Shown here piece after piece: positions 9,874 through 26,611 of a DNA stretch of 26,611 bases. This DNA is from a virus: the IMG/VR virus record IMGVR_UViG_3300021964_000430, positions 1 through 26,611 of that record; one strand, 5' to 3'. Made by a program: the position numbers and the translations under genes. The notes under the pieces were generated by a model that had not been told where the DNA came from, made no database searches, and saw nothing but the letters and a program-made list of their open reading frames with translations. Positions within the stretch are counted from its first letter, which is position 1. Each line of letters opens with the position of its first letter.

Positions 9874-9902
9874 TTGACAAACTAGTAGTTTTAGTATATA
9901 CT
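9874..9902 (+). promoter_or_regulatory. Sigma-70-type promoter for the radical SAM/glycosyltransferase operon
   Basis: TTGACA at 9874-9879 and TATACT at 9897-9902 with a 17-base spacer, an almost perfect bacterial vegetative promoter. Transcription would begin near 9909, giving a leader of about 20 bases, with AAGGAGAT (9917-9924) as ribosome site for the ATG at 9928. It is the only such promoter I see in the window. Its type differs from the NATAAATA boxes of the structural genes, suggesting that the downstream operon is read by unmodified host RNA polymerase early in infection. Confidence 0.75.
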
Positions 9903-11919: not shown

Positions 11920-12458
11920 TGTTTTATATATACTTTGACCTAGACAGTAAACATATTTTAAGTATTGTCAACGAAAAAAATAATTCTAATGAAAATTATG
12001 TGACAAAATCTTACAAGGATGTAGAAAAGTTTCTGACAGGAGAATTAAATTTTAATGAATATAAACTCCAAGAAGATGTTAGAGTAAAAGGAACTTTCGA
12101 TATTGTTCCTATAGATTATGAGATTCCAACTGATTACACACACCCTTATACAACAATATCTAAAACATCTACACAACAAGAAAACAGTATACAATTTATA
12201 AAAAATAAATCGAGTCTTATTGCAAATAATTTTATAGATAAAGAAATCTGTAATGACCTTATTAGCGGAACAGATTATATAAAAGAATATTATATTGTAA
12301 AAAGTAGTAATAGATTTGTTTTGCTAGATAGTTTTCAAATTAATCTAAAAGACTTTGCCACACAACAACAATTAGTGATAAGTACAAACATTACTGACGA
12401 AGATTTTTATATTCTAACACATAACAGTCATATAGAACATGTATATAATGGAGAATAA
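11919..12458 (+). CDS. Hypothetical protein in glycosyltransferase/radical SAM operon
   Basis: I do not recognise this 179-residue protein. The start is set at ATG 11919 (TAATG junction) because AGAGGA at 11904-11909 lies 9 bases upstream; an in-frame ATG at 11898 would add 7 residues but has no ribosome site. It begins MFYIYFDLDSKHILSIVNEK, a beta hairpin-like start, is rich in N, K, I and D, and has a single cysteine and no membrane segment or catalytic signature. A second half from about residue 85 (SIQFIKNKSSLIANNFID) is separated from the first by a polar T/S/Q stretch, so it may have two small domains. It sits between two glycosyltransferase-like pairs and may assist them. Confidence 0.65.
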   Translation: MFYIYFDLDSKHILSIVNEKNNSNENYVTKSYKDVEKFLTGELNFNEYKLQEDVRVKGTFDIVPIDYEIPTDYTHPYTTISKTSTQQENSIQFIKNKSSLIANNFIDKEICNDLISGTDYIKEYYIVKSSNRFVLLDSFQINLKDFATQQQLVISTNITDEDFYILTHNSHIEHVYNGE

Positions 12459-12459
12459 A

Positions 12460-13377
12460 TTGAAGATTATTGATTACGATATTATCTACCTGTCATATGA
12501 TGAGCCTAATGCTGAAAAGAACTATGCAGATTTACTTACTAAAGTACCATGGGCAAAGCGTGTACATGGTGTAGAAGGATCAGACGCCGCACACAAAGCC
12601 TGTGCAGAATTAAGCGAAACAGATAGATTTATTACTGTTGATGGTGATAATCAAATTAATCCAGCATTTATATTGCAAGAAATAGATTTTAAACAACACG
12701 CCGATTTGGAACACAGTGTGATTAGCTGGTGTGGCAAAAATATTATTAACGGACTTATGTACGGAAACGGTGGACTTAAATTTTGGCCTAAACAATATGT
12801 ATTAAATATGAAAACACATGAAAATGCTGATCCAAATAACTTACAAGCTCAAGTAGACTTTTGCTGGGATTTAAAGTACATACAACAGAACAGTTGTTAT
12901 AGTAACGTGTACAATAATGAAACCCCGCAACAGGCCTGGAGAGCAGGATTTCGAGAAGGTGTTAAGATGGCACTTGATCAAGGTGTAAAACCTTCCAATG
13001 AAGATTTTTTGAATGGACATTGGAAAAATTTACATAGACTATGGATTTGGCTTATGGTGGGTGCAGATGTAAAAAACGGTAACTGGGCAATCTACGGAGC
13101 AAGAGAAGGATTGTATAAAACTATGTGTACTGACTGGGACTATGTAAATGTACGCGACTTCGAATACCTAAATGATATATGGAAAAAGAATTATAGTGAA
13201 ATTGCTGAAGATAAGCTGGCATATGAAATTATGGGACTAGGAGAAACACTAAAACACGAGCTGGGGGTACCAATAGCAACAGATCCGTTGGATGCAGAAC
13301 AAAGCAAGTTTTTCAAATTAGTGTATCAAAACCCTAGCCGTAACCCTCAACAACAGTTTGTGATTGATCCAGAATGA
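12460..13377 (+). CDS. GT-A-like protein with YGxGG[LV]K motif
   Basis: 305 residues from TTG 12460, chosen because GGAG (12450-12453) lies 6 bases upstream and the product then begins MKIIDYDIIYLSYDEPNAEK, like the paralog at 14605; ATGs at 12439 and 12448 have no ribosome site. Motifs: RVHGVEGSDAAHKAC (34-48), FITVDGDNQINP (57-68) with D-x-D D61/D63, and YGNGGLKFWP (101-110). The two proteins share HGV-[K/E]-G, a D-x-D and YG-x-GG-[L/V]-K-[L/F]-[F/W]-P, so they form a distinct family. A D-x-D after a Rossmann-like start suggests a nucleotide-sugar transferase. This copy is about 80 residues longer. It overlaps the following radical SAM gene by 4 bases (ATGA). Enzyme activity and substrate are inference. 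Confidence 0.6.
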   Translation: MKIIDYDIIYLSYDEPNAEKNYADLLTKVPWAKRVHGVEGSDAAHKACAELSETDRFITVDGDNQINPAFILQEIDFKQHADLEHSVISWCGKNIINGLMYGNGGLKFWPKQYVLNMKTHENADPNNLQAQVDFCWDLKYIQQNSCYSNVYNNETPQQAWRAGFREGVKMALDQGVKPSNEDFLNGHWKNLHRLWIWLMVGADVKNGNWAIYGAREGLYKTMCTDWDYVNVRDFEYLNDIWKKNYSEIAEDKLAYEIMGLGETLKHELGVPIATDPLDAEQSKFFKLVYQNPSRNPQQQFVIDPE

Positions 13378-14612
13378 AAAAAGATACAATATGTGCAATA
13401 CCGTGGATGCATTTAAATTTTGAACCTAATGGAAAAGTAGTCCCTTGTTGTTTGACCTCCACACATAATTATTTTGCAGGAGATCTCACTACACAATCTA
13501 TTGAAGAAATTTGGAACAGTGATAATATGAAATCACTTCGTTTACAAATGATTAATGGGGAACAGCCTAAAATATGTAGTACTTGTTTTAACAAAGAAAG
13601 TGTCACAGGACTAAGCGGACGTATACATAATAATAAAGCATTTCCCCAAGTACTTGAGCGTATTCCAGAAATTACTGACGAAACTGGCCATGTTTCAGAA
13701 ATGAATTTACTTTACTGGGATTTTAGATTTAGTAACTTGTGTAATCTTAAATGTAGAAGTTGTGGACCAAGGTACAGCAGTGCTTGGGTACCAGATGCAA
13801 AAAAATTAGGACTAATTTCAGATCAAGACAAAGTATGGAACATTGATTCTGTCGATGATGCAAATAATTTTGATTTTCTTACTGAACAAATTGGTGTTGT
13901 TGAAAAGATTTATTTTGCTGGAGGCGAGCCGTTGATGATGGACGAGCATTGGCAAATACTTGAGCTGTTAGATAAAAACAAAAGACATGATGTAAAGATA
14001 TGTTATAATACAAATTGCACTACATTTACATACAAAAATAAAGATGTATTCGATTACTGGAAGAATTGGAATGCCGACAAGTTAGAAATATGGCCCAGCA
14101 TAGATGAAATAGGTCCCAGAGCAGAACTTATACGTTCTGGAACTGTTTGGACCAAAGTAGAAAATAACTTAAAAAGATTAACAACCTTAGATAATGCATT
14201 AATAAAACCTGGCATAACAGTGGGTGCTTGGAACGTATTTAGACTTCCTGAAATAATAACACATCTAGTAGACATTGGTGTAATTAACAGCGAGCGACAT
14301 CATCAAAACTTTTTTCTTAATTTAATAGAAATGCCATTACATTATAACATTGCTATATTACCAGATAAATTTAAAAACAAGACTAGAAAGCGTCTTGTTA
14401 AGTTTATTGGTAGTTTTAATAAAAAATATAATACTAACATAAAAGAACATTTTACTCAAATAATATCTGAGCTATCAAAGGAACATAATCCAAACGCCGC
14501 ACAGCGATTTGTAAACATGACAGCAAAAGTAGACAATGTAAGAAAAGAAAAGTTTTATGATGTCGTTCCTGAATTAAAAATGCTAAAAAGGATTTATCCA
14601 ACAGATGTATGA
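13374..14612 (+). CDS. Radical SAM protein with N-terminal SPASM/twitch-like domain (copy 1)
   Basis: 412 residues. Auxiliary cluster motif comes first: C7-AIPW, P24-C25-C26, the IEEIWNSDNMKSLR segment (43-56) and C68-x-x-C71. The radical SAM core follows with C123-NLK-C127-RS-C130, which binds the [4Fe-4S] cluster that cleaves S-adenosylmethionine, and the GGEP motif (183-186) that contacts SAM. In classical SPASM enzymes the auxiliary cluster lies after the core; here it precedes it, as in the family annotated 'twitch domain-containing radical SAM protein'. SPASM enzymes usually modify peptides, proteins or sugars by hydrogen abstraction. It lies between two paralogous GT-A-like genes, overlapping both (4 and 8 bases). 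Substrate unknown. Confidence 0.85.
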   Translation: MKKDTICAIPWMHLNFEPNGKVVPCCLTSTHNYFAGDLTTQSIEEIWNSDNMKSLRLQMINGEQPKICSTCFNKESVTGLSGRIHNNKAFPQVLERIPEITDETGHVSEMNLLYWDFRFSNLCNLKCRSCGPRYSSAWVPDAKKLGLISDQDKVWNIDSVDDANNFDFLTEQIGVVEKIYFAGGEPLMMDEHWQILELLDKNKRHDVKICYNTNCTTFTYKNKDVFDYWKNWNADKLEIWPSIDEIGPRAELIRSGTVWTKVENNLKRLTTLDNALIKPGITVGAWNVFRLPEIITHLVDIGVINSERHHQNFFLNLIEMPLHYNIAILPDKFKNKTRKRLVKFIGSFNKKYNTNIKEHFTQIISELSKEHNPNAAQRFVNMTAKVDNVRKEKFYDVVPELKMLKRIYPTDV

Positions 14613-15276
14613 TATAGCATTTATAAGTTATAACGAAGTGGAAGCAGATCATAACTGGCAACAACTCAAACAAAAGTTTCCCTATGCTAAACGAACACAC
14701 GGCGTAAAGGGAATACATCAAGCCCATATTGAAGCAGCAAAAAAAGCCTGTACTAGAATGTTTTATATTGTTGATGCAGATGCTGTTATTTTAAATGAGT
14801 TTGATTTCAGTTATGTACCTCCAAAATACGAATTAGATCATGTGCATGTTTGGCGAAGTCAAAATCCAATCAACGACTTAGTATATGGATACGGTGGTGT
14901 AAAATTATTTCCAAGAACCAAAACTATAAAAATGGATACTAGTAAACCAGATATGACTACAAGTATTAGTGATAAGTTTAAATTGATGCAGGATATATCA
15001 AATGTAACAGCATTTAATGTAGATGAATTTAGTACATGGCGTAGTGCATTTAGAGAATGTGCAAAATTAAGTAGTAAAACAATTGATAGACAAAACGAGG
15101 ATGAAACAAATGAAAGACTTAAAATATGGACAACAGTGGGAAGAGATGCTCCCTTCGGCGAATACGCTATTAAAGGTGCTGTTGCTGGCAGGGAGTACGG
15201 GATTTCTAGCGGGGCTGATCTTGGGTTAATAAACGACTTTAACTGGCTTAAGGAGAAATACAATGCAGATTGCTGA
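14605..15276 (+). CDS. GT-A-like protein with YGxGG[LV]K motif (short paralog)
   Basis: 223 residues, paralog of the gene at 12460. MYDIAFISYNEVEADHNW matches that protein's start, then RTHGVKGIHQAHIEAAKKAC (30-49), FYIVDADAVIL (53-63) with D-x-D D57/D59, HVWRSQNPINDL and YGYGGVKLFP (94-103). The fold-level reading is a GT-A-type nucleotide-sugar transferase acting in the cytoplasm; I recall similar unassigned proteins in T4-like marine phages. It flanks the first radical SAM gene on the other side from its paralog, so duplication and insertion, or paired use with that enzyme, are possible. Start ATG 14605 overlaps the previous gene by 8 bases; no other in-frame start nearby. The C-terminus ends inside the next gene's start (14-base overlap). 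Confidence 0.6.
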   Translation: MYDIAFISYNEVEADHNWQQLKQKFPYAKRTHGVKGIHQAHIEAAKKACTRMFYIVDADAVILNEFDFSYVPPKYELDHVHVWRSQNPINDLVYGYGGVKLFPRTKTIKMDTSKPDMTTSISDKFKLMQDISNVTAFNVDEFSTWRSAFRECAKLSSKTIDRQNEDETNERLKIWTTVGRDAPFGEYAIKGAVAGREYGISSGADLGLINDFNWLKEKYNADC

Positions 15277-16030
15277 AATACTAGATAGATTAGAACTACT
15301 ATACCCGGACAACTCTATCTTTAGTGATCTAAGAAAAACCTTATTAAGTCAAGATAAGTTTGCATTGTTTAGAATTATACAAGAATTTACAGGCAGTCAA
15401 TTAATTGAAGGTATGCGTAAGTATAAAGACGATGACAGTTTTAATGCAGACTGTTTTAGTCGAGGACAACTAGAAAGCAAACTATGGTTGTTAACCGAAC
15501 TAGGAAAACTTAATGTAGGACTAGGCACAGTGTTCTTATGTGCAGGATGGTATGCTACACTTGCTACAATGTTATTTGAAAGTGACATTAAAATAGATAA
15601 AGTTAGATCTTTCGACATTGACGAGTCATGTGTAGACATTGCTGAAACATTCAATAAGCCGTGGTTTGTAGATAAATGGCGTTTTAAAAGTATTACACAA
15701 GATATTATGGATATTAATTACAACGAACATGTTTGGCAGTATTGGAGTAATGCTAATAATAGAATGAGCTACCCTATTACTGATAGTCCAGATACTATTA
15801 TAAACACAAGTTGTGAACACATTGAAAACTTTCAAGAATGGTATGATCTAATACCAGATGGCAAGTTAGTTGTATTACAAAGCAATAATTATTATGAAAT
15901 TGAAGAACACGTTAATTGTGTCAGAAGTATAGAAGAGTTTGCAGTAAAAGCACCTATGGATAATATTTTATACAGTGGCGAATTAGATCTGCCCAAGTAC
16001 AAGAGGTTTATGTTAATTGGATTTAAGTAA
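15263..16030 (+). CDS. Predicted SAM-dependent methyltransferase-like protein
   Basis: 255 residues. An N-terminal helical part (1-80) leads into a Rossmann-like core: GTVFLCAGWYATLATMLFE (88-106) where class I methyltransferases have the glycine-rich SAM loop, VRSFDIDESCVDIAETFN (114-131) with the acidic residue that would hold the ribose, ITQDIMDINY (144-153) after strand 3, and PDTIINTSCEHI (176-187) at motif IV. The glycine loop is degenerate (C-A-G-W), so binding of SAM is likely but not certain. I recall similar proteins in T4-like cyanophages, sometimes called methyltransferases. AAGGAG (15250-15255) precedes the ATG, which lies in the previous gene. In this operon it could methylate a transferred sugar or a protein side chain; target unknown. 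Confidence 0.62.
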   Translation: MQIAEILDRLELLYPDNSIFSDLRKTLLSQDKFALFRIIQEFTGSQLIEGMRKYKDDDSFNADCFSRGQLESKLWLLTELGKLNVGLGTVFLCAGWYATLATMLFESDIKIDKVRSFDIDESCVDIAETFNKPWFVDKWRFKSITQDIMDINYNEHVWQYWSNANNRMSYPITDSPDTIINTSCEHIENFQEWYDLIPDGKLVVLQSNNYYEIEEHVNCVRSIEEFAVKAPMDNILYSGELDLPKYKRFMLIGFK

Positions 16031-16241
16031 TTTAACATTAAGAGAAATGCAAACTGAAAGTGCAAGAGCACTTAGCACTATACAAGCGACTAATAATAAC
16101 ATACACCAATTTAACAAACAAGCACACCACAATAGTGAAAATTGGTATAAGGCTGTAATAGAGTGGTATGTAGAACAATATGGCGACTTACCTAGTCGTA
16201 CAGGACCTGGCAAAGAAATAAAGTTAGTATTAGATGTATAA
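16017..16241 (+). CDS. Small conserved-looking helical protein, function unknown
   Basis: 74 residues from TTG 16017, with AGAGG (16002-16006) 10 bases upstream; an ATG at 16047 would give 64 residues but has a poorly spaced site. It is predicted mainly helical, with N/Q/H-rich centre (IQATNNNIHQFNKQAHHNSE) and a C-terminal EWYVEQYGDLPSRTGPGK. No cysteine, membrane segment or known motif. It overlaps the methyltransferase-like gene by 14 bases and the next radical SAM gene by 8, so it is clearly in the operon. Its size and place next to a radical SAM-SPASM gene raise the option of a partner or substrate protein, but it lacks an obvious leader/core layout and does not show a recognisable RRE (PqqD-like) pattern. 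Confidence 0.6.
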   Translation: MDLSNLTLREMQTESARALSTIQATNNNIHQFNKQAHHNSENWYKAVIEWYVEQYGDLPSRTGPGKEIKLVLDV

Positions 16242-17298
16242 TTACCAAGATATAAAAACAATACACCTTGAAGTAACACAAAACTGTCAAGCAAGTTGTC
16301 CCATGTGCGATCGTAATATGAATGGAGAAGGTATTAATCCTCACATAAATTTAGATGAACTATCACTGCAAGACTGTAAAGACATATTTACTATTGCCTT
16401 TATAAAACAATTAGACACAATGTATATGTGTGGCAACTTAGGCGACCCTATAGTTGCTCGAGACACACTAGAAATATTCAAATACTTTAGACAACACAAT
16501 CCTAACATGTGGTTAAGCATGAATACAAATGGAGGCGCAAAGAATGAAGAATGGTGGAGAGATTTGGCAACAACTTTTGGTCGCATGGGGGCTGTTATTT
16601 TTAGCGTTGATGGTTTACGCGATACTAACCATATCTATCGTCAAGGTGTTGTTTGGGACAACGTAGAACGCAACATGCAAGCATTTATAAATGCAGGAGG
16701 TAGAGCTCGTTGGGACTACTTAATATTTGAACATAACCAGCACCAAGTTGACGAAGCTGAAGCACTTGCAAATGCATGGGGATGTGAAAAGTTTATGAAG
16801 AAAAAGACTGGACGTTTTATTACACAAGATAGTAAAAAGAAAGAATCACACCAAGCAGTAAATCGCAAAGGCAAAGAAACACAAGAACTTAAAAAACCAA
16901 ATGCTAAGTATCTAAACAAAGCTCTTAGCAAACAAGATATAATTATAAACAAGTATGGTACTATGGACGCATACTATGATGCAGCACCGATTGTTTGTAA
17001 AGTTAAAAAAGAAAACAGTTTGTTTATTACAGCAGAAGGACTAGCACTACCATGCTGTTGGACTGCTGGACGCATGTACAAATGGTGGCACAAAGATCCT
17101 AAAGTAGAACAGATATGGGACTTTATTGATAAAGAAGCTTTAGATGCTCGTAACGGATTAGGCAAAGTTTTTGATACAGGAATATTTGATCGCATACAAG
17201 AAAGCTGGGCAAAGCCTAGTTGCGGCGACGGCAAGTTAAAGGTGTGTGCAATGAAATGCGGATCCGAGTTCGATCCTTTTGCAGAACAGTTCAAATAA
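16234..17298 (+). CDS. Radical SAM/SPASM protein, classical domain order (copy 2)
   Basis: 354 residues. The radical SAM core is N-terminal: C18-QAS-C22-PM-C25, then WLSMNTNGG (93-101) and VIFSVDGLRDTNHIYR (121-136). The C-terminal SPASM-like domain has C255, P273-C274-C275, C330, C338 and C342, enough for one or two auxiliary [4Fe-4S] clusters. Between them is a lysine-rich linker (about 190-245). It is a paralog of the genes at 22751 and 25656, sharing DGL-x-DTN-x-x-YR and the motif W-D-Y-L-x-F-x-H-N-x-H-Q-V-D (160-173). Classical SPASM proteins modify peptides, proteins or sugars. ATG 16234 overlaps the small upstream gene by 8 bases. Of the eight radical SAM genes this and the 22751 gene look the most like a bacterial SPASM enzyme. 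Substrate unknown. Confidence 0.87.
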   Translation: MYNYQDIKTIHLEVTQNCQASCPMCDRNMNGEGINPHINLDELSLQDCKDIFTIAFIKQLDTMYMCGNLGDPIVARDTLEIFKYFRQHNPNMWLSMNTNGGAKNEEWWRDLATTFGRMGAVIFSVDGLRDTNHIYRQGVVWDNVERNMQAFINAGGRARWDYLIFEHNQHQVDEAEALANAWGCEKFMKKKTGRFITQDSKKKESHQAVNRKGKETQELKKPNAKYLNKALSKQDIIINKYGTMDAYYDAAPIVCKVKKENSLFITAEGLALPCCWTAGRMYKWWHKDPKVEQIWDFIDKEALDARNGLGKVFDTGIFDRIQESWAKPSCGDGKLKVCAMKCGSEFDPFAEQFK

Positions 17299-17305
17299 GT
17301 ACAAT

Positions 17306-18715
17306 ATGAGCGATAAAACATTACCATCAGAAACTTTCTGTGCATTACCGTGGATGCATCTAAGCAGTAGACCAGACGGAAAGATGCGTACTTGTTGTAC
17401 ATCAAACGCAAGCAGTGTACAAGATCCAGATTCAAATAAAAAAATAGGTGGCGGAGAAGTTGGCATTGTAAAAAATGATGACGGCGTCCCTGCTAACTTT
17501 AATCATACAACATTAGAAGAAGCATGGAATAGTGGATATATGCGTAATGTTCGTAAAATGATGTTGCGTGGAGAAAAGCCTGCTAGTTGTTTAAAATGTT
17601 ACAAAGAAGAAGAACAAGGTCATCTTAGTAAAAGAAACTGGGAAACCGAATATTGGGGTCGTAGATACGACCTACAGCAGTTGGTAGATGAAACTAAGGT
17701 AGATGGTAGTATTCCTCCTAAGATACGCTATATAGACCTTAGATTAGGAAGTAAGTGCCAATTAGCATGTGTCATGTGTTCACCACATGATAGTACAGGT
17801 TGGATCAAAGACTGGAAAGCAATTACTCCTCAAATGAAAAATGAAAAACTTGCTAATACAAGTCAATGGACAAACAAAGGTCGTAATGACGGAGCAAGTT
17901 ACAATTGGCATAAAAACAATCCAAGGTTTTGGAACGATCTTATGGATCAAATTCCGCACATGTATCAGTTGTATTTTGCTGGCGGCGAAAGTTTAATTAT
18001 TGACGAACACTATGAATTGTTAGAAGAATGTATTAAACGTGGACATGCTAAGAATATGGAACTACGTTATAATTCAAATGCTGTAGAATGGCGTGATGAT
18101 TTATTTGACCTATGGGCACAGTTTAAGCGTGTGCGTTTCCATTACAGTATTGATGCCTATGGAGAACAAAATGACTACATACGTTATCCTAGCACTTGGG
18201 AACATCAAGAACGTGTGTTTCACATGCTAGATAATACAGCACCGCAAGTAGAAGTTACAACAGCAACTACTATTATGGCACTTAATGTTGCCTACGTACC
18301 AGAGTTTGTAAAATGGAAAGTTAAGCAAGGCTTTAAAAAATTAAACAAATGGCCCTTAGGAGCAGGCGGCATAAACATGCATTTTGCATATTGGCCACCA
18401 CAACTAAATGTAAAAGTACTACCTGCCCATATTAAAAGAGAGATTACAGACAAATACGAAAATGAATTTTTTCCTTGGATGGAAGAAAACTGGAAATTAT
18501 TTACAGGTGTAGAAGAAGCCGGCATTACTAAAGAGCAATGGCTTAATGCCCCTTACGGAATGAAACGCTTTAAAGGTATAATAAAGTTTATGAATTCAGA
18601 AGACTGGAGTGCTAGGCTTCCGGAAACAAAAGAATACTTAAATTTAGTAAACGAACGTAGAGGTTGGACAGAAAAATTCCCGGAAGTATTTCCAATACTA
18701 AAGGACATAATATGA
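17306..18715 (+). CDS. Radical SAM protein with N-terminal SPASM/twitch-like domain (copy 3)
   Basis: 469 residues from ATG 17306 (7 bases after the previous stop; the frame is open a little further upstream but that part lies in the preceding gene). N-terminal auxiliary motif: C12-ALPWMHLS, C30-C31, LEEAWNSGYMRNVR (70-83), C95-x-x-C98, then GHLSKRNWE. Radical SAM core: C151-QLA-C155-VM-C158, FAGGESL (224-230), and Y-I-R-Y-P-S near residue 290, a phrase shared with the copy at 20740. A long C-terminal region ends with WTEKFPEVFPIL, a pattern also found at the ends of sister copies (PELKML, FPQLRKI, PEMYQLI, LPELARY). This is the longest of the five proteins with this order. It overlaps the next gene by 4 bases. 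Confidence 0.85.
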   Translation: MSDKTLPSETFCALPWMHLSSRPDGKMRTCCTSNASSVQDPDSNKKIGGGEVGIVKNDDGVPANFNHTTLEEAWNSGYMRNVRKMMLRGEKPASCLKCYKEEEQGHLSKRNWETEYWGRRYDLQQLVDETKVDGSIPPKIRYIDLRLGSKCQLACVMCSPHDSTGWIKDWKAITPQMKNEKLANTSQWTNKGRNDGASYNWHKNNPRFWNDLMDQIPHMYQLYFAGGESLIIDEHYELLEECIKRGHAKNMELRYNSNAVEWRDDLFDLWAQFKRVRFHYSIDAYGEQNDYIRYPSTWEHQERVFHMLDNTAPQVEVTTATTIMALNVAYVPEFVKWKVKQGFKKLNKWPLGAGGINMHFAYWPPQLNVKVLPAHIKREITDKYENEFFPWMEENWKLFTGVEEAGITKEQWLNAPYGMKRFKGIIKFMNSEDWSARLPETKEYLNLVNERRGWTEKFPEVFPILKDII

Positions 18716-19425
18716 AAACTGTAGCAGTATTTGGTTGTAGTTTTTCAGAAGGTGTAAATACACTAGAAATTCACAGAAGCAAAAATAATTGGCCTTTATT
18801 TTTAAGTCAAAAACTAAATGATTGTAAAGTTTATAATTATGCTACAGGTGCCACTTCTATAGATTATATGCTAGAAAAACTATTAGAATACAAATACGAA
18901 AATCCAAATTCAATATGTGTATTTCAAGCTACTAAGCCACATAGATTCACCCGTGAGGTTTCCCGTATAGATTTAAACGAAAAATGGCAAACTAATAAGA
19001 AATTCAGTACTGAAAATTATCTTAAATTGGATAAAGAAAACCTTGTTAGGATTACAAGAGGAACTCAAATTGCTCCTGCAGATTTTAACAATGACAAAGA
19101 ATGTAAAAAAATCTTAAAATTTATAAAAAGTTACTATGATAATTATGACAATATGCACCAATTATTACAATTCAATAGCTATGTGTCAATGGCAAGTCAT
19201 GTAGCTGATTTTTGCTATATACATACCCGGAATGCTAACCAACCCTATCAACAAAATATAAAAAGTGGTTATTACGGCAAATATTTTACAGATATACCAT
19301 GTGTGAACGAAATTCTTGGTCATAAGTTTACGGAATTTTCACAAGATGAAGGAAACCATTTTAACATAGACGGTAATAAATGGATTGCTGCTTGGGTATA
19401 TAATAATATAAAGGATCTACTATGA
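18712..19425 (+). CDS. SGNH/GDSL hydrolase-like protein
   Basis: 237 residues from ATG 18712, with AAGGAC (18701-18706) upstream and a 4-base ATGA overlap. The N-terminus KTVAVFGCSFSEGVNT places S10 in a G-x-S-x-S-x-G context like block I of SGNH/GDSL esterases, and the C-terminus DEGNHFNIDGNKWIAAWVYN places H216 like block V (usually D-x-x-H; here E or D precedes it). Blocks II and III are not clear, so the oxyanion residues are unassigned. Such enzymes remove or transfer acyl groups, often O-acetyl groups on sugars, which would suit a glycan-tailoring operon. No signal peptide, so cytoplasmic. The next gene starts in its last codons (4-base overlap). Family call is moderate; activity is inference. 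Confidence 0.6.
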   Translation: MKTVAVFGCSFSEGVNTLEIHRSKNNWPLFLSQKLNDCKVYNYATGATSIDYMLEKLLEYKYENPNSICVFQATKPHRFTREVSRIDLNEKWQTNKKFSTENYLKLDKENLVRITRGTQIAPADFNNDKECKKILKFIKSYYDNYDNMHQLLQFNSYVSMASHVADFCYIHTRNANQPYQQNIKSGYYGKYFTDIPCVNEILGHKFTEFSQDEGNHFNIDGNKWIAAWVYNNIKDLL

Positions 19426-20747
19426 ATATAGATGATAAAAATTTTTGTGTAGTTCCTTTTGTACAATTAAACACTCGTGGAAAAGGTGATGCTAGAGTAT
19501 GCTGTAGTATTACTGGAATTGAAAGAGGCATACCTAAAGAACTATTACTAGACGAAATTACACCTGATAATTACACAGCAGAAACTCCTGTTTATAATCT
19601 AATGAATGACAGTATTGCAGATTTATGGAACAGCGATTTTATGAAAGACTTCCGCATGAAAATGTTAAACGGCGAACATATACCTGCCTGCGAATTTTGT
19701 CATCGCATGGAAGCAAGTGGATTAACATCTAAACGTATAGGAAAAAATAAAAGATTTAAAGAAAAAACATTACCTCTATTACAAAAATATTATGAACGCA
19801 ATGGGCATGTTGATATTATGCCACAGTGGTGGGAAATACGGTTGAGTACAAAGTGTAATCTAAGTTGTATTATGTGTACTCCAGGCCTAAGTTCAATGAT
19901 GTATAAAGAGTATTCAAAATGGGAAAAACAAGGAAAAAGTATTCCTATGATGCAAGGTGCATTAGACATTGCTAAAGATGGCGGCCAAGAATATTTAAGC
20001 AGCAGTAAATTTTTTAAAAAACAAATTATGGATAATCTTGAACATTGTTTGTTTATGGAATTTAGAGGCGGCGAAGTATTTGCAGATAAACCCAGTGTTA
20101 AATTTATTGACAGTATCGGTGATACGGGATATGCAAAAAATATTCAATTAGACATTAGTACTAATGCTACATTACTTACTGAAGACGTAATTAATGTTTT
20201 AAACAAATTCGGCGGCGGCACTCTTAGATTTAGTATTGATAGTTTTGAAGATGAAGATGAATATATTAGGTACCATACTGAATGGCAAAGTGTTATAGAC
20301 AGCATGACTAATTCAAGAAAACTTCACAAAGGTTGGCGATTTCTTACACAAACTACTGTGCAATCGTTAAACTGTTTGACCATGGATAAGCTAATTACAT
20401 TTTTTGATACTTACATTAAAGAAGACAACTCTCAAAGATTTTATCTAGGTTTTACAACAGTTAGAGGTAAAGATTATTTACGACACGAAATGGTTAGTTT
20501 ACAAGATAGAAAAGCACAAATTGAAAAGTTAGAAAATATACGAAGTAGTTTGCATATTTTTAATGAACATAAAAAGAAACAGCATTATAATGATGCATTG
20601 GATATGCTTATATCTACACTTGGTATGCCAGCATATAATAATGATGATTTAAATAAAAAATCAATAGAGTATTTTGAAACACTTACAAAACTTAGAGGTA
20701 TCGATTATTTTGCTAAGTTTCCGCAATTGAGGAAGATAAATGAATAA
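19422..20747 (+). CDS. Radical SAM protein with N-terminal SPASM/twitch-like domain (copy 4)
   Basis: 441 residues. N-terminal auxiliary motif: C9-VVPFVQL, C27-C28, IADLWNSDFMKDFRMKM (65-81), C90-x-x-C93, then GLTSKR. Radical SAM core: C145-NLS-C149-IM-C152, R-GGE (215-218) and FSIDSFEDEDEYIRYHTEW, where sister copies have S-I-D-x-x-G and YIRYPS. It is the most divergent of the five: the second position of the usual C-x-[I/L]-PW motif is VPF, and GGE is followed by V rather than P/S. A C-terminal helical tail ends with KFPQLRKINE. It overlaps the SGNH-like gene before it by 4 bases and the next copy by 8. Target unknown. Confidence 0.85.
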   Translation: MNIDDKNFCVVPFVQLNTRGKGDARVCCSITGIERGIPKELLLDEITPDNYTAETPVYNLMNDSIADLWNSDFMKDFRMKMLNGEHIPACEFCHRMEASGLTSKRIGKNKRFKEKTLPLLQKYYERNGHVDIMPQWWEIRLSTKCNLSCIMCTPGLSSMMYKEYSKWEKQGKSIPMMQGALDIAKDGGQEYLSSSKFFKKQIMDNLEHCLFMEFRGGEVFADKPSVKFIDSIGDTGYAKNIQLDISTNATLLTEDVINVLNKFGGGTLRFSIDSFEDEDEYIRYHTEWQSVIDSMTNSRKLHKGWRFLTQTTVQSLNCLTMDKLITFFDTYIKEDNSQRFYLGFTTVRGKDYLRHEMVSLQDRKAQIEKLENIRSSLHIFNEHKKKQHYNDALDMLISTLGMPAYNNDDLNKKSIEYFETLTKLRGIDYFAKFPQLRKINE

Positions 20748-22122
20748 AACATTATGTCCTATTCCCTGGATGAGTCAAAGTTATCGTGCTAACGGAGATA
20801 TTAGAGTCTGTTGTCAAGCACAACACGGCCCAACCGGCGGCATACTAAAAGATGAAGATGGTAATGTAATTAATGCTAGAGATAGCGATCTTAATCAAAT
20901 AAGAAATGCACCTATCGAAAAAGATATACGCAAGGCTATGATGAACGGAGAACGTCATCCAGAGTGCATTCGTTGTCATACTGAAGAAGATGCTGGAATG
21001 ACTAGTAGACGTATGCTTGAAAATAAGTTATGGATAAAAGGCGGATGGAATCAAATTAAGGAAGAAGATAAATTTACTTGGGAATACCTATTAGAAAATA
21101 CACACGAAGATGGAACTATTAATACAGATGTTATAGGAAATAGTTTCTTTGATCTACGTTTTGGAAATTTATGTAATTTAAAATGTAGAATGTGTGGACC
21201 TACCGACAGTAGCATGTGGTACGATGAACAAGTTAAACTTTGGGGAGATACTTATAAAGATAGTCATGGTACGGTAAAACTAATACCTAATGCGAAAGGA
21301 AAACATATTCCTGAAGTTAATGTATATGATTGGCATGAAAGTGAATCATATTGGGAGCAAATGGAAAACCATATTCCGCATATCAAAAAGTTGTATATTG
21401 TAGGCGGAGAACCTTTTATGATTGATCAACATTATGCATTCCTACAAAAATGTGTTGACCAAGGGTATGCAAAAGATATGGTTGTTGAATACAATTCTAA
21501 TATAACAAATATTCCTCAACGTGCTTGGGACATATGGAAACATTTTAGACGTATAGGTATAGGTGCAAGTATTGATGCTATAGGAGATTTAAACTATTAT
21601 ATCCGTTACCCTAGTCGTTTTAAAAAGATATGGGAAAATTTAAATAAACTGTCTAGTGCAGATGGAAATTTCAAAATTTGGTATGCAACAACTATTAGTG
21701 TTTATAATGTATTTGTATTACCAGAAATGCTAGAATATATTGTAAGAAATACTTTACCAAGAGTAAATGATGATGATATGAAACCAATCATGAGTCCTCA
21801 TCCATTACATGGTCCACATTTTTTAAACATAAGAATGTTGCCTAAAAAAGTAAAAGATAAAATTGCAAATAAGTTTGAAGACTCAAAAGAAAATTTAGAC
21901 AATATAATTGATGAATTTATCTTAGACGAAAGTAGAAATATTGCAAGCAAAGATCAAATGCGAAAAATACTTGACACATATAAAGAATTTATGTACGCTA
22001 AAGATATGAGTGCAAGTATACCTAAGTTTTGGGAACACACAAGAAAACTTGATGCTATTAGAGGACACAAGTTTGAAGAATACTGTCCTGAGATGTACCA
22101 GCTTATAAAGGATACAGAATGA
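20740..22122 (+). CDS. Radical SAM protein with N-terminal SPASM/twitch-like domain (copy 5)
   Basis: 460 residues. N-terminal auxiliary motif: C6-PIPWMSQS, V23-C24-C25, LNQIRNAPIEKDIRKAMMNG (51-70), C76-x-x-C79, then GMTSRRMLENK. Radical SAM core: C145-NLK-C149-RM-C152, VGGEPF (221-226), ASIDAIGD and YIRYPSRFKKIWENLNKL. A His-rich segment with IMSPHPLHGPHFLNIRMLP lies in the C-terminal half, where the copy at 17306 has MHFAYWPP and LNVKVLP, so the two are closest relatives. The C-terminal tail ends with CPEMYQLIKDTE. It is placed directly after copy 4 and directly before the oxygenase-like gene (8- and 4-base overlaps), so two radical SAM enzymes and an Fe(II) oxygenase would be made in step. 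Confidence 0.85.
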   Translation: MNKTLCPIPWMSQSYRANGDIRVCCQAQHGPTGGILKDEDGNVINARDSDLNQIRNAPIEKDIRKAMMNGERHPECIRCHTEEDAGMTSRRMLENKLWIKGGWNQIKEEDKFTWEYLLENTHEDGTINTDVIGNSFFDLRFGNLCNLKCRMCGPTDSSMWYDEQVKLWGDTYKDSHGTVKLIPNAKGKHIPEVNVYDWHESESYWEQMENHIPHIKKLYIVGGEPFMIDQHYAFLQKCVDQGYAKDMVVEYNSNITNIPQRAWDIWKHFRRIGIGASIDAIGDLNYYIRYPSRFKKIWENLNKLSSADGNFKIWYATTISVYNVFVLPEMLEYIVRNTLPRVNDDDMKPIMSPHPLHGPHFLNIRMLPKKVKDKIANKFEDSKENLDNIIDEFILDESRNIASKDQMRKILDTYKEFMYAKDMSASIPKFWEHTRKLDAIRGHKFEEYCPEMYQLIKDTE

Positions 22123-22754
22123 AAAATTGGTATAAAATTGAACTAGGAGATTTGATTACTGAAGCAAAAGAAATTTGGACTCATGTATGTGATAATATTC
22201 ACGAAGATAACCCTGTAATTAAACATATGAGAAAGCCTAATCCTTATTTTACACATGTAAATTTAGGAGTACAGTCTAAGCAATGGTCTTATTTTAGAGA
22301 ATTGTTTAATGAAATTACAGACGAACCTTGTTTACTTGAATTTTATGTTGCAGAACCTCATAATTATGTTGCTAATCCGCATACTGATAGAGGAAGAAGT
22401 GTTGCAATCAACATTCCGGTTCAAGTAAATTTGGAAAAAAGTGATGCATACTTTGGAAAATATACTAATTTAGATGATTATCAGCATACTTCTAATTATG
22501 AGCCTTATACTTTTAAACTTATTGACAGTAAAGGAAAGGCTAAACAAGAGATAAATCAGCATTTTCGAGGCAAATATCAAGCTGAATTATATGATAGTGT
22601 AAATTTTGATAAGTCAGTAGTTTTTAATCCTGCTATGCCTCACGGCGGTTACAACAACAGTGATGAGATTAGAGTTTTGTTAAGCCTAAGTTGGTTTAAC
22701 ACTAGTTTTGAAGAATTTACAAGTACAGCTAAGGATTTAGGTTATATTCTATGA
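22119..22754 (+). CDS. 2OG-Fe(II) oxygenase-like protein
   Basis: 211 residues. The central NPHTDRGRSVAINIPV (86-101) gives an H-x-D pair (H88, D90) and VVFNPAMPHGGYNNSDEIRV (167-186) gives the distal H175 and R185, the layout of double-stranded beta-helix 2-oxoglutarate/Fe(II) oxygenases (H-x-D...H and an arginine that binds 2-oxoglutarate). The spacing of about 85 residues between H-x-D and the second H is acceptable. LLEFYVAEPHN (72-82) would be the preceding core strand. Such enzymes hydroxylate or desaturate proteins, sugars or small molecules and need oxygen, in contrast to the oxygen-sensitive radical SAM enzymes around it. Both ends overlap neighbours by 4 bases. No signal peptide. 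Substrate unknown. Confidence 0.62.
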   Translation: MKNWYKIELGDLITEAKEIWTHVCDNIHEDNPVIKHMRKPNPYFTHVNLGVQSKQWSYFRELFNEITDEPCLLEFYVAEPHNYVANPHTDRGRSVAINIPVQVNLEKSDAYFGKYTNLDDYQHTSNYEPYTFKLIDSKGKAKQEINQHFRGKYQAELYDSVNFDKSVVFNPAMPHGGYNNSDEIRVLLSLSWFNTSFEEFTSTAKDLGYIL

Positions 22755-23854
22755 AATATTTAGAACCTATTGAGGTAAAATATTTACAATTAGATCATAA
22801 TTCTACTTGTAATCTAAGATGTCCTCAATGTGCTAGAACACATGAAGGTAACACACATCCTGACCTTCCTTTAACAGAACTTACAGTAGATGATTATAAA
22901 TGGTTCTTAAATGACCTTAAAAACTTAGATACAGTAATGTGGTGCGGAAACTATGGCGAAGTGGGGTTTTCTGAAACCTTCTTGGATTGCCTACAATATG
23001 TTGTGGAAAATACCCAAGCAAAATGTATAATAACTACTAATGCTAGTGTCAGGAGCGAAACTTGGTGGAAAGAGGTAGCTAAACTACTTAAAGGACGAGG
23101 AAAAGTAAATTTTTCAATTGATGGATTAGAAGATACCAACAAGATATATCGTGTAAACTCTAACTGGGATAGAATAGTTTCTAATGTTAAAGCGTTTAAC
23201 TCAGTTGGCGGTAGATCTCGATGGGACTACCTTGTGTTTGATCATAATGAACATCAAGTTGATGATGCTGTAGAACTTGCTAAAACACTAGGGTTTGAAC
23301 AATTTCAAATTAAATTAACTAATCGTTTTGTAAATGATACACAATATACACAAGGCGGAGAAGCACAAGCACAAGAAGTTAAAAACAAACGCAGTGAATA
23401 TGTTCTTGGTATGCCTAAAAATCCAAACTTTCAAGGAAGCGGCAAAACACAGAACCAAGAAATTATAGAAAAATATGGCTCCTGGAAAAACTATGTAAAT
23501 ACTACGCCAATAAAATGCAAATGGCAACCAAATGGTCAATTGTTTATAGATTTCGAAGCAAGAGTTTGGAGTTGTACTTGGACAGCTAGTGGATATCATC
23601 ATTACGGTGATAACACACAAAAACATCAAGCACAACAGCTATTTGACAAATACGGCAAAAATTTTAATAGTTTACGACATCATAGTATAGGAGAAATATT
23701 AAATAATGATTATTTTGCAAATGATTTTTGTGCTAGTTGGCAAGGAACTATGGAAGATGAAGTTCCTAAACTACTTGCTTGCGGTCGGACCTGCGGCACA
23801 GATTATGAATTTAGTTCAGCATACGGATCTAATAGGAGAATAATACAATTATGA
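22751..23854 (+). CDS. Radical SAM/SPASM protein, classical domain order (copy 6)
   Basis: 367 residues, paralog of the gene at 16234. Core: C20-NLR-C24-PQ-C27, MWCGNYGEVG (63-72), IITTNASV, VNFSIDGLEDTNKIYR (119-134), and RWDYLVFDHNEHQVDDA (157-173). The C-terminal auxiliary domain has C256, C275, C327, C344 and C348. One notable difference: where the relative at 16234 has the pair C-C, this protein has S-C-T, so one of the usual adjacent cysteines is missing. A linker of about 60 residues rich in Q, K and N (195-245) separates the domains, ending in IIEKYGSWKNYV, like NKYGTMDAYY in the relative. ATGA overlaps at both ends couple it with the oxygenase-like gene and the next radical SAM gene. 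Confidence 0.87.
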   Translation: MKYLEPIEVKYLQLDHNSTCNLRCPQCARTHEGNTHPDLPLTELTVDDYKWFLNDLKNLDTVMWCGNYGEVGFSETFLDCLQYVVENTQAKCIITTNASVRSETWWKEVAKLLKGRGKVNFSIDGLEDTNKIYRVNSNWDRIVSNVKAFNSVGGRSRWDYLVFDHNEHQVDDAVELAKTLGFEQFQIKLTNRFVNDTQYTQGGEAQAQEVKNKRSEYVLGMPKNPNFQGSGKTQNQEIIEKYGSWKNYVNTTPIKCKWQPNGQLFIDFEARVWSCTWTASGYHHYGDNTQKHQAQQLFDKYGKNFNSLRHHSIGEILNNDYFANDFCASWQGTMEDEVPKLLACGRTCGTDYEFSSAYGSNRRIIQL

Positions 23855-25107
23855 AAAAAGCAGATGATATTAGTCCATCAATGTGCATAATGCCATGGAC
23901 TGGATTAGCCACTGATGCAAGCGGCGGAATAAGACCCTGTTGTTGGATGGAAGCAATTACTCCTGATAAATTTTTAGGTAATCCTAAAGATTATAAAAAT
24001 AGTAATTATTTAAAAAATTTAAAACAAACTTTTCTAAAAGGCGAATACCCTGCAACTTGTCATCGTTGTAAAGCAGACGATCTCAAAGGAATGGAAAGTA
24101 AACGTGTAAGAGAAAATAAAACTTGGGAAAACCAAGGCGGAGATTGGAATAAGGTTGATCAAGAAAACTTTGATATAATAGACTTACGATTAAGCAACAT
24201 TTGTAATCTTGGGTGCGTTATGTGCGGACCTAAAAGTAGCAGTTTTATCCGCAAAGAAGTTGAGGAGAATTTTGAAAATTCTCCTTGGCATAATAAGAAT
24301 CAATTTAGAGGTGTAAAAGATTTAAATTTACTCCAGCCCTATTCAGATAATCAAATTGAAGAAATAATCGACGAAATAGGACCTAATGCAAGAATATATT
24401 GCACAGGAGGAGAGCCTAGTTTAGTAAAGAAAACTACTAGATTATTAGAAGTATTAGTTGACAAAGGCTATAATAAAACAGTTTTATTACAATTTAATAG
24501 TAACTTTCAAACACTTAATCAAAAATGGTTTGATTTATTAAAAATGTTTAAAGGAGATATGCTACCTAGTCTTGATGGAGTTGGTAAGACAGCAGAATAT
24601 GTTCGTTATCCATGTGACTGGGAACAGGTAAATTTTAATATAAAAACATTTATAGAACAATGTGGCGAAACATGGACAGTTAAATGTATGCCAACAGTAA
24701 GTATTGTTAGTATATTTGGTCTAAAAAATTTATATAAATGGTGGTATGAAGAAATACGTCAAGAAGTACCATTAGTAAATGAAAGACTTACTACCCACAA
24801 AAATATTGCAATGCGTGTGCAGGTCAACAATAGATTAGTTGCGCCTAATTACTATGATATAAGAAACTTACCAAATGCCGCAAAAGAAGCAGCAACAAAA
24901 GATATTGATTTTATAATTGCTAACTATGGCAAATATTTTCAAATGTCAAAGGAACTGTTATTTCTAAATGATGTAAAGAAACAATTAAGTTTAGAATCAA
25001 ATTTTGAGTTTTCTAAAACAATAGAAAGTTTAGATAAATTTGATAAAGTTAGGAACAACAGTTGGAGAGAAAGTTTGCCCGAATTAGCGAGGTACACAAA
25101 TGTCTAA
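23851..25107 (+). CDS. Radical SAM protein with N-terminal SPASM/twitch-like domain (copy 7)
   Basis: 418 residues. N-terminal auxiliary motif: C12-IMPWTGLA, P29-C30-C31, C70-x-x-C73, then GMESKRVRENKTW. Unlike its sisters the segment between CC and CxxC (YKNSNYLKNLKQTFLKGEYP) lacks the I-x-x-[I/L]-W-N motif. Radical SAM core: C118-NLG-C122-VM-C125, CTGGEPS (184-190), PSLDGVGKTAEYVRYPCDWE. The extra cysteines at 184 and in the YVRYPC segment are not in the other copies. The C-terminal tail ends LPELARYTNV like its sisters. It overlaps the classical radical SAM gene before it by 4 bases and the dehydrogenase-like gene after it by 8. Confidence 0.85.
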   Translation: MKKADDISPSMCIMPWTGLATDASGGIRPCCWMEAITPDKFLGNPKDYKNSNYLKNLKQTFLKGEYPATCHRCKADDLKGMESKRVRENKTWENQGGDWNKVDQENFDIIDLRLSNICNLGCVMCGPKSSSFIRKEVEENFENSPWHNKNQFRGVKDLNLLQPYSDNQIEEIIDEIGPNARIYCTGGEPSLVKKTTRLLEVLVDKGYNKTVLLQFNSNFQTLNQKWFDLLKMFKGDMLPSLDGVGKTAEYVRYPCDWEQVNFNIKTFIEQCGETWTVKCMPTVSIVSIFGLKNLYKWWYEEIRQEVPLVNERLTTHKNIAMRVQVNNRLVAPNYYDIRNLPNAAKEAATKDIDFIIANYGKYFQMSKELLFLNDVKKQLSLESNFEFSKTIESLDKFDKVRNNSWRESLPELARYTNV

Positions 25108-25663
25108 AATATTAGTAGCAGGAAATCCAGATTATGGATTGTCTAAAGCAATAAAATTTTTATATCCTGATGCTACATTTGTAAGTAGGACGCACGGCAA
25201 CTTAGATCTAAGTATACCTAGCAAGCAAAGAGAGCTTGCCGAATTGTCTATGGATTATGATATATTCATAGCTGTTAGTTGTATATGGAGATTTGCACAA
25301 ACTGAATATGTACAAGAAGTTGCTAAACGTTGGATTGAAAGGAAACATGGATATATTATTGCTATAGGCTCTAGTGCAGACACTCCGGTTAAAGGTACTG
25401 CTTGGATGTATCCTGCAGAGAAAAAAGCTCTTAGATCTTATTGTAGACAGTTAAGTCAAATTAGTGCAGGTGAAAATGATTGCGGCTTAAAAGTAACATA
25501 CCTAAGCCCTGGTAATATTCATACGCCTAAACAAGATGAAAAAATGCCCGATACACACAAATTAGAACCAGCATATATTTCAAGCGTAATTAAATGGTTA
25601 ATCGATCAACCTGAATCTATAAATATTAGCGAATTATGTTTAGATAGGATACTTAATGGTTAA
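25100..25663 (+). CDS. Short-chain dehydrogenase/reductase-like protein
   Basis: 187 residues with the layout of a compact Rossmann-fold SDR. KILVAGNPDYGLSKAI (3-18) resembles the NAD(P)-binding glycine motif; IIAIGSSADTP (86-96) offers the catalytic serine (S91 or S92); Y104-PAE-K108 matches the Y-x-x-x-K catalytic pair; and LKVTYLSPGNIHTP (130-143) matches the P-G-x-x-x-T region. It is shorter than the usual 250 residues, with the lid region reduced. SDRs oxidise or reduce sugar hydroxyls and keto groups, among many substrates, so a role in making or finishing a modified sugar is plausible. No membrane segment. It overlaps neighbours by 8 bases on each side. Confidence 0.72.
   Translation: MSKILVAGNPDYGLSKAIKFLYPDATFVSRTHGNLDLSIPSKQRELAELSMDYDIFIAVSCIWRFAQTEYVQEVAKRWIERKHGYIIAIGSSADTPVKGTAWMYPAEKKALRSYCRQLSQISAGENDCGLKVTYLSPGNIHTPKQDEKMPDTHKLEPAYISSVIKWLIDQPESINISELCLDRILNG
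25618..25625 (+). promoter_or_regulatory. Possible late-promoter-like box TATAAATA inside a gene
   Basis: An exact T4 late-type TATAAATA lies inside the dehydrogenase-like gene, ending 30 bases before the ATG at 25656. It could give extra late transcription of the last radical SAM gene, but a few such octamers are expected by chance in DNA this AT-rich, and it is not in a gap like the other boxes. Confidence 0.2.
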
Positions 25664-26366
25664 AGAAGGCTATCAAGGATTAAATGTTAATTACAACATA
25701 GCAAGAAGACTACACATAGAGTTAGGTACAAGGTGTAATCTAAGTTGTACCGGTTGTGCAAGGACAAGAATTATAAATTCCCCGCTATTGCCAAACGGAG
25801 ACTGGAGACTTTATCCAGAGTGGAAAATTGGCGATATTGGCCACGAAACTATGAAACACCTATTAGCTCCAGGCAATAATATTAAATATTTGTTCTTCAA
25901 CGCAAATTTTTCTGACCCTATCTATTGCGGTCATTTATTTGAAACATTGGATTATATTAATACGTTGCAAAATAGACCGGTGTTACAATTTAGTACAAAC
26001 GCCAGTGGACGAAGCCCTAACTGGTGGAGAGAATTTGCATCTAAGTTTAGAAAAGGTGATAAGATTGATTTTGCTATCGATGGATTACAAGATACTAATC
26101 ATTTGTATCGTATAAATGCAAAATGGAATAGTATTTGGAACGGAGTAAATGCATTCTTAGAAGAAAAGAAAAGATTAGGATTTAACTTACAAGTTACTTG
26201 GAGATTTTTAGTTTTCAAACACAATGTTCACCAAATAAAAGAAGCAAAAGAACTTTCAGAAAAATTAGGTATGAGGTTTAAATTAATTAAAGCAGCTCCT
26301 AGAACGCCTAATACACAGCAACCAGATCAAACTTGGAATGAAATTTTAAATATGGTAAACAGTTGA
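25656..26366 (+). CDS. Radical SAM core protein, classical family, lacking its auxiliary domain (copy 8)
   Basis: 236 residues. It carries only the radical SAM core: C27-NLS-C31-TG-C34, LQFSTNASG, IDFAIDGLQDTNHLYR (137-152), and RFLVFKHNVHQIKEA (183-197), aligned with the paralogs at 16234 and 22751. It ends at TGA 26364-26366 where those proteins continue through a linker into the SPASM domain. The sequence directly after the TGA, in the SAME frame, encodes that domain, starting with ATG at 26367. So this is either a split enzyme with restart, a readthrough case, or a nonsense mutation. AGGA (25646-25649) precedes the ATG at 25656, which overlaps the previous gene by 8 bases. TGA is an ordinary stop elsewhere in the window (for example 14612 and 18715). 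Confidence 0.85.
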   Translation: MVKEGYQGLNVNYNIARRLHIELGTRCNLSCTGCARTRIINSPLLPNGDWRLYPEWKIGDIGHETMKHLLAPGNNIKYLFFNANFSDPIYCGHLFETLDYINTLQNRPVLQFSTNASGRSPNWWREFASKFRKGDKIDFAIDGLQDTNHLYRINAKWNSIWNGVNAFLEEKKRLGFNLQVTWRFLVFKHNVHQIKEAKELSEKLGMRFKLIKAAPRTPNTQQPDQTWNEILNMVNS

Positions 26367-26611
26367 ATGGCAAAAAAGAAAAAAATATATCCAAAATGTA
26401 AATTAACGACTACGACTCACCCAACGCTTACTTGGGACGGATACGTTACTCCGTGCTGTCTATTAGCAGCGATCCCTTTTCAAGAAGTAAAAAAATTAGT
26501 AGGAAAAAAATTAGAACAATTACATATTTCTAGCGGAACAATAGACGAAATTAATAGAAGTGAAGCAATGTATCTGATAGAAAAATCATTTACCGAAAAT
26601 CCTATGGAACA
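26367..26611 (+). CDS. SPASM-like auxiliary domain, separate reading frame piece (3' end outside window)
   Basis: 81 residues are visible before the window ends, with no stop. The protein begins with a lysine-rich tail and has C11, then THPTLTWDGYVTPCC (17-31) with P29-C30-C31, and TIDEINRSEAM, equivalent to the I-x-E-I-W-N-S-x-x-M segment after the CC pair in sister proteins. This is the auxiliary iron-sulfur domain that the preceding 236-residue radical SAM protein lacks. ATG 26367 follows directly on that gene's TGA and is in the same frame; no ribosome site is visible, so restart after termination or readthrough would be needed. It may instead be the start of a larger radical SAM protein with an N-terminal auxiliary domain, like the five sister copies; the rest lies beyond the window. 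Confidence 0.72.
   Translation, partial: MAKKKKIYPKCKLTTTTHPTLTWDGYVTPCCLLAAIPFQEVKKLVGKKLEQLHISSGTIDEINRSEAMYLIEKSFTENPME

Follow-up and report, generated by a model that had tools for sequence, protein, structure and literature searches.

Groups of radical S-adenosylmethionine (rSAM) genes have been reported for several phages. The Campylobacter phages CP220 and CPt10 (Firehammervirus), which are distantly related to T4, carry 11-12 rSAM genes (PMC2853527), and the genomes of pelagimyophages (T4-like phages of SAR11) differ by "radical SAM" cassettes within the host recognition cluster, a hypervariable island of tail fibres and glycosyltransferases that lies between VrlC and gp14 and in which GT8 is the most represented glycosyltransferase family (PMC7029224). 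In Tasman Sea viromes, an enrichment of genes for rSAM proteins and glycosyltransferases was also reported (PMC7150976). Here we describe an array of eight predicted rSAM enzymes on a fragment of an uncultivated, probably T4-like aquatic phage, the IMG/VR record IMGVR_UViG_3300021964_000430; the whole record, a linear fragment of 26,611 nt, was analysed and is referred to as the window. A preliminary description of this DNA, made from its letters alone, implied that single rSAM genes are the norm in phages, which is not supported by the passages on CP220/CPt10 and on the pelagimyophage islands cited above. The kind of array is already reported; as compared with these published passages, what is new is its scale, a conserved core, gene fusions, a small protein s, and split rSAM pairs.

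The rSAM genes lie in a unit of 20 genes that extends from 9928 to the contig end, all on the plus strand, and in which the neighbours overlap or nearly abut. The order of the unit is a, g1, g2, h, G1, N1, G2, M, s, C1, N2, H, N3, N4, O, C2, N5, D, C3, and c3, where N1-N5 and C1-C3 are the rSAM genes of two types (open reading frames, ORFs, were called on the plus strand, and the fusion ORFs in relatives were taken from stop to stop). The preliminary description had seen one overlapping array at 13374-26611 beside tail-fibre genes. The overlapping or nearly abutting arrangement held up, but the eight rSAM genes are not back to back, other genes intervening between several of them, and the related unit begins earlier, at about 9928.

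CP220/CPt10 resemble the window in that one module of five rSAM genes stands together, there with an amidinotransferase, for which no family match was obtained in the window. Nucleotide-diphospho-sugar transferases adjoin the CP220 module, baseplate-type genes stand upstream of it, and the C-type profile picks up three CP220 rSAM proteins (E 3e-32 to 2e-37). The CP220 module differs, however, in being without the N_Twi type; homologues of s, G1/G2, and M were not found in it, the gene order is not shared, the rSAM genes are fewer than in the arrays described here, and the identity is weak (23%). With the pelagimyophage cluster, compared by the gene content of the fragment, the window shares the meeting of tail fibres and glycosyltransferases in a hypervariable island, but in the published passages rSAM cassettes are mentioned in passing, without enzyme families, core order, fusions, or s (PMC7029224). 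The isolated Vibrio phages K566 and K567 carry four clustered N_Twi-type rSAM genes, but the identity is about 20-23%, and homologues of the GT-A-type genes, s, and C1 were not found in the stretch examined. N1-N5 are members of the N_Twi_rSAM family (NF033640), whose name refers to its domains only; we know of no activity for this family. The twitch rSAM aminoglycoside enzymes BtrN, NeoN, and HygY are similar in the chemistry that we propose for the array, in which sugar carbons would be edited by radicals with the help of a single auxiliary cluster, but they did not come up as close sequence relatives, and their auxiliary domain is C-terminal, whereas that of N1-N5 is N-terminal.

All eight rSAM genes start at the positions proposed in the preliminary description, each of which is the start of a plus-strand ORF, and each contains the CX3CX2C core. 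None of the eight failed as a predicted rSAM enzyme by profile evidence: Pfam Radical_SAM (PF04055) matches all of them (E 3e-8 to 2e-3), and its gathering score of 29.5 bits is exceeded by N1, C1, and C2, the other five being lower with E 3e-6 to 2e-3. The five N-type proteins, N1 (13374..14612; 362.9 bits), N2 (17306..18715, with an alternative in-frame TTG start at 17279; 419.7 bits), N3 (19422..20747; 283.7 bits), N4 (20740..22122; 370.4 bits), and N5 (23851..25107; 274.8 bits), are all above the curated cut-off of NF033640 (275-420 bits versus 170). In contrast, C1 (16234..17298; PF04055 34.4 bits), C2 (22751..23854; PF04055 33.3 bits), and C3 (25656..26366) fail this family with 41-51 bits, carry the rSAM motif at residues 18-34, and are without the N-terminal Cys domain. 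Relatives were thinned to less than 70% identity, giving 266 N-type and 59 C-type sequences. Since CX3CX2C is present in all eight proteins and invariant in the 266 and the 59 relatives, a chance occurrence of the motifs is excluded. Beyond this core, the N-type sequences contain four N-terminal Cys that are 99-100% conserved in the 266 sequences (the N-terminal twitch domain), while in the C-type sequences the rSAM core comes first and the extra Cys are C-terminal and nearly invariant across the 59 relatives; in C1, invariant Cys stand at both ends, and C2 likewise carries the C-terminal set. Each of the eight, all of them intact, has an additional conserved Cys set that suits an auxiliary cluster, that of the eighth being on a separate ORF truncated by the contig end.

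This eighth gene, proposed as a single rSAM gene at 25656, does contain the rSAM core but is split. C3 (CX3CX2C at residues 27-34; PF04055 E 0.002; phrog_21308 E 3e-18) is a core without auxiliary domain that stops at a TGA, and c3 (26367..26609), starting directly after it in the same frame and running off the contig, is a separate SPASM-like domain (PF13186, 22.1 bits) with Cys of the auxiliary-cluster type. Stand-alone homologues of c3 were found beside short rSAM genes in loci L055/L156 and L097, and analogous pairs in L123 and L141 (L055:7545-8508; L097:18994-19921; L123:12487-13388; L141:4158-5166). Because of these comparable pairs, the split into core and auxiliary ORF is probably real. 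A sequencing error at the TGA was considered unlikely, as rSAM-core and SPASM-like ORFs neighbour or overlap each other as separate genes in L055, L097, L123, and L141.

The array is not peculiar to the window. Scans of IMG/VR with the N-type and C-type alignments each gave at least about 600 stretches, and the fetched loci contain up to 10 rSAM genes within 21 kb. Among 99 loci having at least four core genes, 97 are collinear with the window, and the window order is kept by 1590 of 1594 gene pairs, although close relatives among these loci are not independent. The recurring order is GT8-GT8-GT-A-[N1]-GT-A-methyltransferase-like-s-C1-N2, followed by variable rSAM cassettes. The closest long relative, L096, repeats nearly the entire window, with the 3' cassette N3-N4-O-C2-N5-D also present, and its array runs on to a total of 14 rSAM genes in 22.4 kb, in agreement with the earlier suggestion that the real number may be higher. 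Long relatives have up to 23 PF04055 matches per record, and a direct count gave 21 rSAM genes for G008, over its first 40 kb, and 22 for G014, over about 48 kb. A third rSAM type with the motif GKRCNxDCSYC (L041:19108-20142, with relatives in 59 loci; L265:10850-12028) is frequent in the arrays, and since it scores low with the N-type and C-type profiles, the rSAM counts of the fetched loci are lower bounds. The long relatives are taken to be T4-like phages because the T4 major capsid protein Gp23 was identified in 11 of the 15 records, one of which is a metagenome-assembled genome (MAG). The window DNA gave no match among 50,697 phage records, nor did s, G2, and g1 by tblastn.

Wherever a relative of at least 66% identity exists, dN/dS of the rSAM genes is about 0.03-0.2, which indicates purifying selection; C3 has only distant relatives. 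Together with the recurrence of set and order and with the partner fusions in other phages described below, this supports the proposal of a dedicated pathway rather than isolated accessory genes, and the opposite outcome, an absence of conserved co-occurrence, did not arise. In trees, the rSAM paralogues of the window are deeply separated, come from many clades, and are not sisters; the array was therefore assembled from old rSAM subfamilies. Recent tandem duplication was rejected, the number of same-locus sisters being 5 versus 6.2 expected in shuffles for the 266 set and 2 versus 1.9 for the 59 set. In the phylum to which the MED685 MAG belongs, 398 genomes were sampled, and N_Twi exceeded the cut-off in three; one of these is that MAG itself, which has a phage-like contig. 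A bacterial origin was rejected on this basis. In this gammaproteobacterial MAG (G001), a contig of 108 kb (contig C3) is T4-like, with many rSAM genes and Gp23; gp23 was found on two further contigs, and phage contigs thus appear to have been binned with the host.

The partner genes are rich in predicted sugar enzymes. At the 5' side of the unit, g1 (10272..11120) is a GT8-like, glycogenin-like glycosyltransferase with a conserved DxD (profile versus glycogenin E 0.004, weak), and g2 (11113..11919), also GT8-like, falls in the same alignment. G1 (12439..13377) and G2 (14605..15276) are paralogues; the G2 model (AlphaFold pLDDT 90.7) has a GT-A fold, from which that of G1 is taken, and matches B4GALNT1 (Z 11.7 over 135 residues), the peptide S-glycosyltransferase ThuS (Z 10.7), and also nucleotidyltransferases. 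With this modelled fold and the DxD conserved in the family (D57/D59), G1 and G2 are predicted to be GT-A glycosyltransferases. M (15263..16030) is methyltransferase-like by motifs, belongs to a conserved family, and gave no meaningful match to Pfam or the PDB. H (18712..19425) is SGNH/GDSL-hydrolase-like (PF00657 E 0.0014, below cut-off), D (25100..25663) is like a short-chain dehydrogenase (SDR; PF00106 27.9 bits, above cut-off), and O (22119..22754), which is without a family match and has few homologues, may be an oxygenase of the 2-oxoglutarate type. The remaining members are a (115 aa, 9928..10275), which opens the overlapping unit behind a good ribosome-binding site and was found in 43 loci, and h (186 aa, 11898..12458), found in seven loci by BLAST and in more by profile.

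The most informative evidence for a partnership between the predicted glycosyltransferases and rSAM enzymes is physical, namely gene fusions. A GT-A domain is fused to an N_Twi rSAM in two phage types (L034, 643 aa; L022/L025, 984 aa), M is fused behind the GT-A domains (GT-A-GT-A-M) in 28 ORFs of relatives, and N_Twi-N_Twi fusions also occur. A GT-A neighbour is present for 19 of 39 N1 orthologues versus 31 of 405 other N_Twi genes (Fisher p 4e-10, with shared ancestry ignored). Families that neighbour rSAM genes in the relatives include carbamoyltransferase, cytidylyltransferase, GT7, UDP-sugar dehydrogenase, asparagine-synthase/QueC-type, NifU, and hydroxylase, besides an amidinotransferase-like protein judged by eye. 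A PP-loop ATPase-like gene often adjoins rSAM genes (L153:2559-3224, with relatives in 26 loci), standing directly before C1 in L153, and an apparent NifU-type Fe-S scaffold gene inside one rSAM array (L155:12044-12361) would suit a high Fe-S demand. A ClpP-like protease gene, recognised by eye from its N-terminal start, lies just upstream of the core GT-A gene in three phages (L131:7892-8479, L130:327-914, L132:6946-7548).

We tentatively favour, at somewhat less than even confidence, the reading that the array encodes a soluble, cytoplasmic sugar-tailoring pathway borne by the phage, the product of which decorates its receptor-binding apparatus. The glycosyltransferases would assemble nucleotide sugars onto an acceptor, and the rSAM enzymes would take hydrogen atoms from sugar carbons via the 5'-deoxyadenosyl radical and then epimerise, oxidise, dehydrate, or otherwise edit the sugars. 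Finishing might be carried out by accessory enzymes such as the SDR and SGNH proteins and, in relatives, the carbamoyltransferase, the amidinotransferase-like protein, and a CMP-sugar synthase. The most likely acceptor would be tail-fibre or adhesin proteins of the phage itself, whose genes lie just upstream, and the variable 3' cassettes would allow a quick change of product under selection from receptors or host defences. In support of sugar substrates, two GT8-like and two GT-A-fold proteins, M, the SDR protein, and the SGNH-like hydrolase are co-encoded with the rSAM enzymes, and the twitch-type rSAM enzymes NeoN, BtrN, and HygY, which act on aminoglycoside sugars, provide a precedent (PMC10991966). 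A cytoplasmic location is favoured because no membrane segments were predicted in any protein of the window; in the arrays as a whole, just three of 348 non-rSAM genes have three or more predicted membrane segments.

Several points weigh against sugar tailoring. Characterised SPASM/twitch rSAM enzymes act mostly on peptides, and among PDB sequences the one closest to the N-type is that of SkfB (E 3e-6), which matures a sactipeptide. About half of the N1 orthologues are without an adjacent GT-A gene, the family matches of M, O, and H are weak or absent, and the GT-A fold is common to nucleotidyltransferases, so that glycosyltransfer is not proven by the fold. The reading, moreover, does not account for s. 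A bolder form of it, which we regard as possible but doubtful, is a widespread, phage-specific assembly line like those of natural products, in which up to about 20 rSAM enzymes of T4-like aquatic phages would act one after another on a glycan or glycopeptide that the fused GT-A/rSAM proteins build, possibly on s as carrier, to give a new virion or cell-surface structure that diversifies by swaps of rSAM cassettes.

The small protein s (74 aa, 16017..16241, helical, TTG start) was absent from the preliminary description, though it is strikingly conserved: 25 positions are invariant across 20 diverse sequences, and the conservation extends over the full length, without a hypervariable core. A scan with s alone gave 394 relatives in IMG/VR and two in 84,980 prokaryote genomes, and none was found in the isolate-phage collection (50,697 records). 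All 82 independently found s loci carry rSAM genes, and C1 is downstream of s in 80 of them, the remaining two ending at the contig edge within 1.65 kb. A strict mutual dependence was rejected: s implies C1, but many records, among them ones of 180 kb and 212 kb, have C1 and no s. The model of s consists of three helices (pLDDT 80). The fold pointed to no substrate, the best Foldseek E being 1.1 and the VIA Z to death domains up to 3.2, which is uninformative, while the sequence gave partial PDB matches to designed repeats and antibodies. We consider that s may be a substrate, a carrier, or a partner.

The main rival to sugar tailoring is peptide maturation with s as the substrate. In this scheme, similar to that of ribosomally synthesized and post-translationally modified peptides (RiPPs), s would serve as a scaffold or precursor peptide; either s or the tail-fibre proteins would be cross-linked, epimerised, or modified in another way by C1, N2, and the other rSAM enzymes, and the product would then be glycosylated by the glycosyltransferases. 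The position of s, a short protein just ahead of C1 in the window and with C1 downstream in 80 of the 82 loci, speaks for this reading, as does its aromatic-rich conserved stretch, NWYKAVIxWY; SPASM/twitch domains are typical of peptide maturases, such as the above-mentioned SkfB, and the glycocin S-glycosyltransferases SunS/ThuS are among the fold matches of G2. An rSAM RiPP system has a short precursor with a conserved leader and a variable core beside the maturase; s is conserved throughout and predicted to be folded, which speaks against this role, as do the many records of C1 without s. No RRE/PqqD-like domain, peptidase (including leader peptidase), or transporter was recognised in the window by Pfam, NCBIfam, and PHROGs, s itself being modelled as all-helical, and arrays of at least 14 rSAM genes are far beyond the need of one small peptide. 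On balance, peptide maturation is judged unlikely.

The same sugar chemistry might instead be directed to the host surface, altering lipopolysaccharide or capsule precursors and thereby blocking superinfection. Known phage O-antigen conversion systems use a flippase, a polymerase, or a membrane glycosyltransferase. None of these was found in the window, and the place of the array within the structural region, next to tail genes, hints at late expression, so that host-surface remodelling is quite unlikely, even though glycosyltransferases do adjoin tail fibres and such an interpretation appears in the published passages on pelagimyophages (PMC7029224). Still less probable is metabolic boosting, as suggested for CP220/CPt10 (PMC2853527), in which each rSAM gene would be an auxiliary metabolic gene, unrelated to the others, that aids the metabolism of the host. 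The cassette-by-cassette variation of the 3' part would fit such a collection, but the conserved order, the shared gene unit, and the gene fusions argue against it, no known cofactor-pathway equivalog was matched at cut-off, and the rarity of N_Twi in the sampled bacteria (3/398) indicates that this is not ordinary host metabolism. Nucleotide chemistry against viruses or competitors (viperin-like chain terminators) or DNA base modification is extremely unlikely. In its favour, N1 weakly resembles prokaryotic viperin and, like N4, the QueE-like PHROG. The viperin score is, however, at most 27 bits against the NF038283 cut-off of 180, no kinase or DNA-modification partner was recognised, and the many rSAM genes have sugar partners.

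Few reactions in biology are as demanding as some of those that rSAM enzymes catalyse, and these enzymes are sensitive to oxygen; yet uncultivated phages give 20-40 kb to rSAM arrays beside tail fibres. If a radical-edited sugar is indeed placed on the virion, this would add a new layer to the way in which phages recognise receptors or evade defences, and the arrays would offer a large and so far unused stock of enzymes with which to edit carbohydrates. Given the fusions and the core gene s, a few constructs would suffice to test this.

Upstream of the unit, t3-t6 (3372-5387, 5393-5977, 6181-7323, and 7361-8878, plus strand) are tail collar/tail-fibre-like and virion structural genes by PHROG tail, tail-fibre, and virion structural families, and their homologues stand ahead of the array in relatives too. 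Between the tail fibre and the array lies t7 (8921..9862, plus strand), a conserved protein of 313 aa without a PHROG match but with homologues in 50 fetched loci. A promoter-like sequence, TTGACA-17-TATACT, is located at 9874-9902 ahead of gene a, such matches being at chance level in the window. Scans of the window for tRNA and Rfam families gave no match, and no informative repeats were found in it. Further upstream, the protein encoded at 2754-3368 is 43-58% identical to jumbo-phage proteins (Sinorhizobium Phosso, Agrobacterium Atu_ph07, Salmonella Munch, and others), and these counterparts are annotated as structural in some of the phages, which points to a structural module of the jumbo type.

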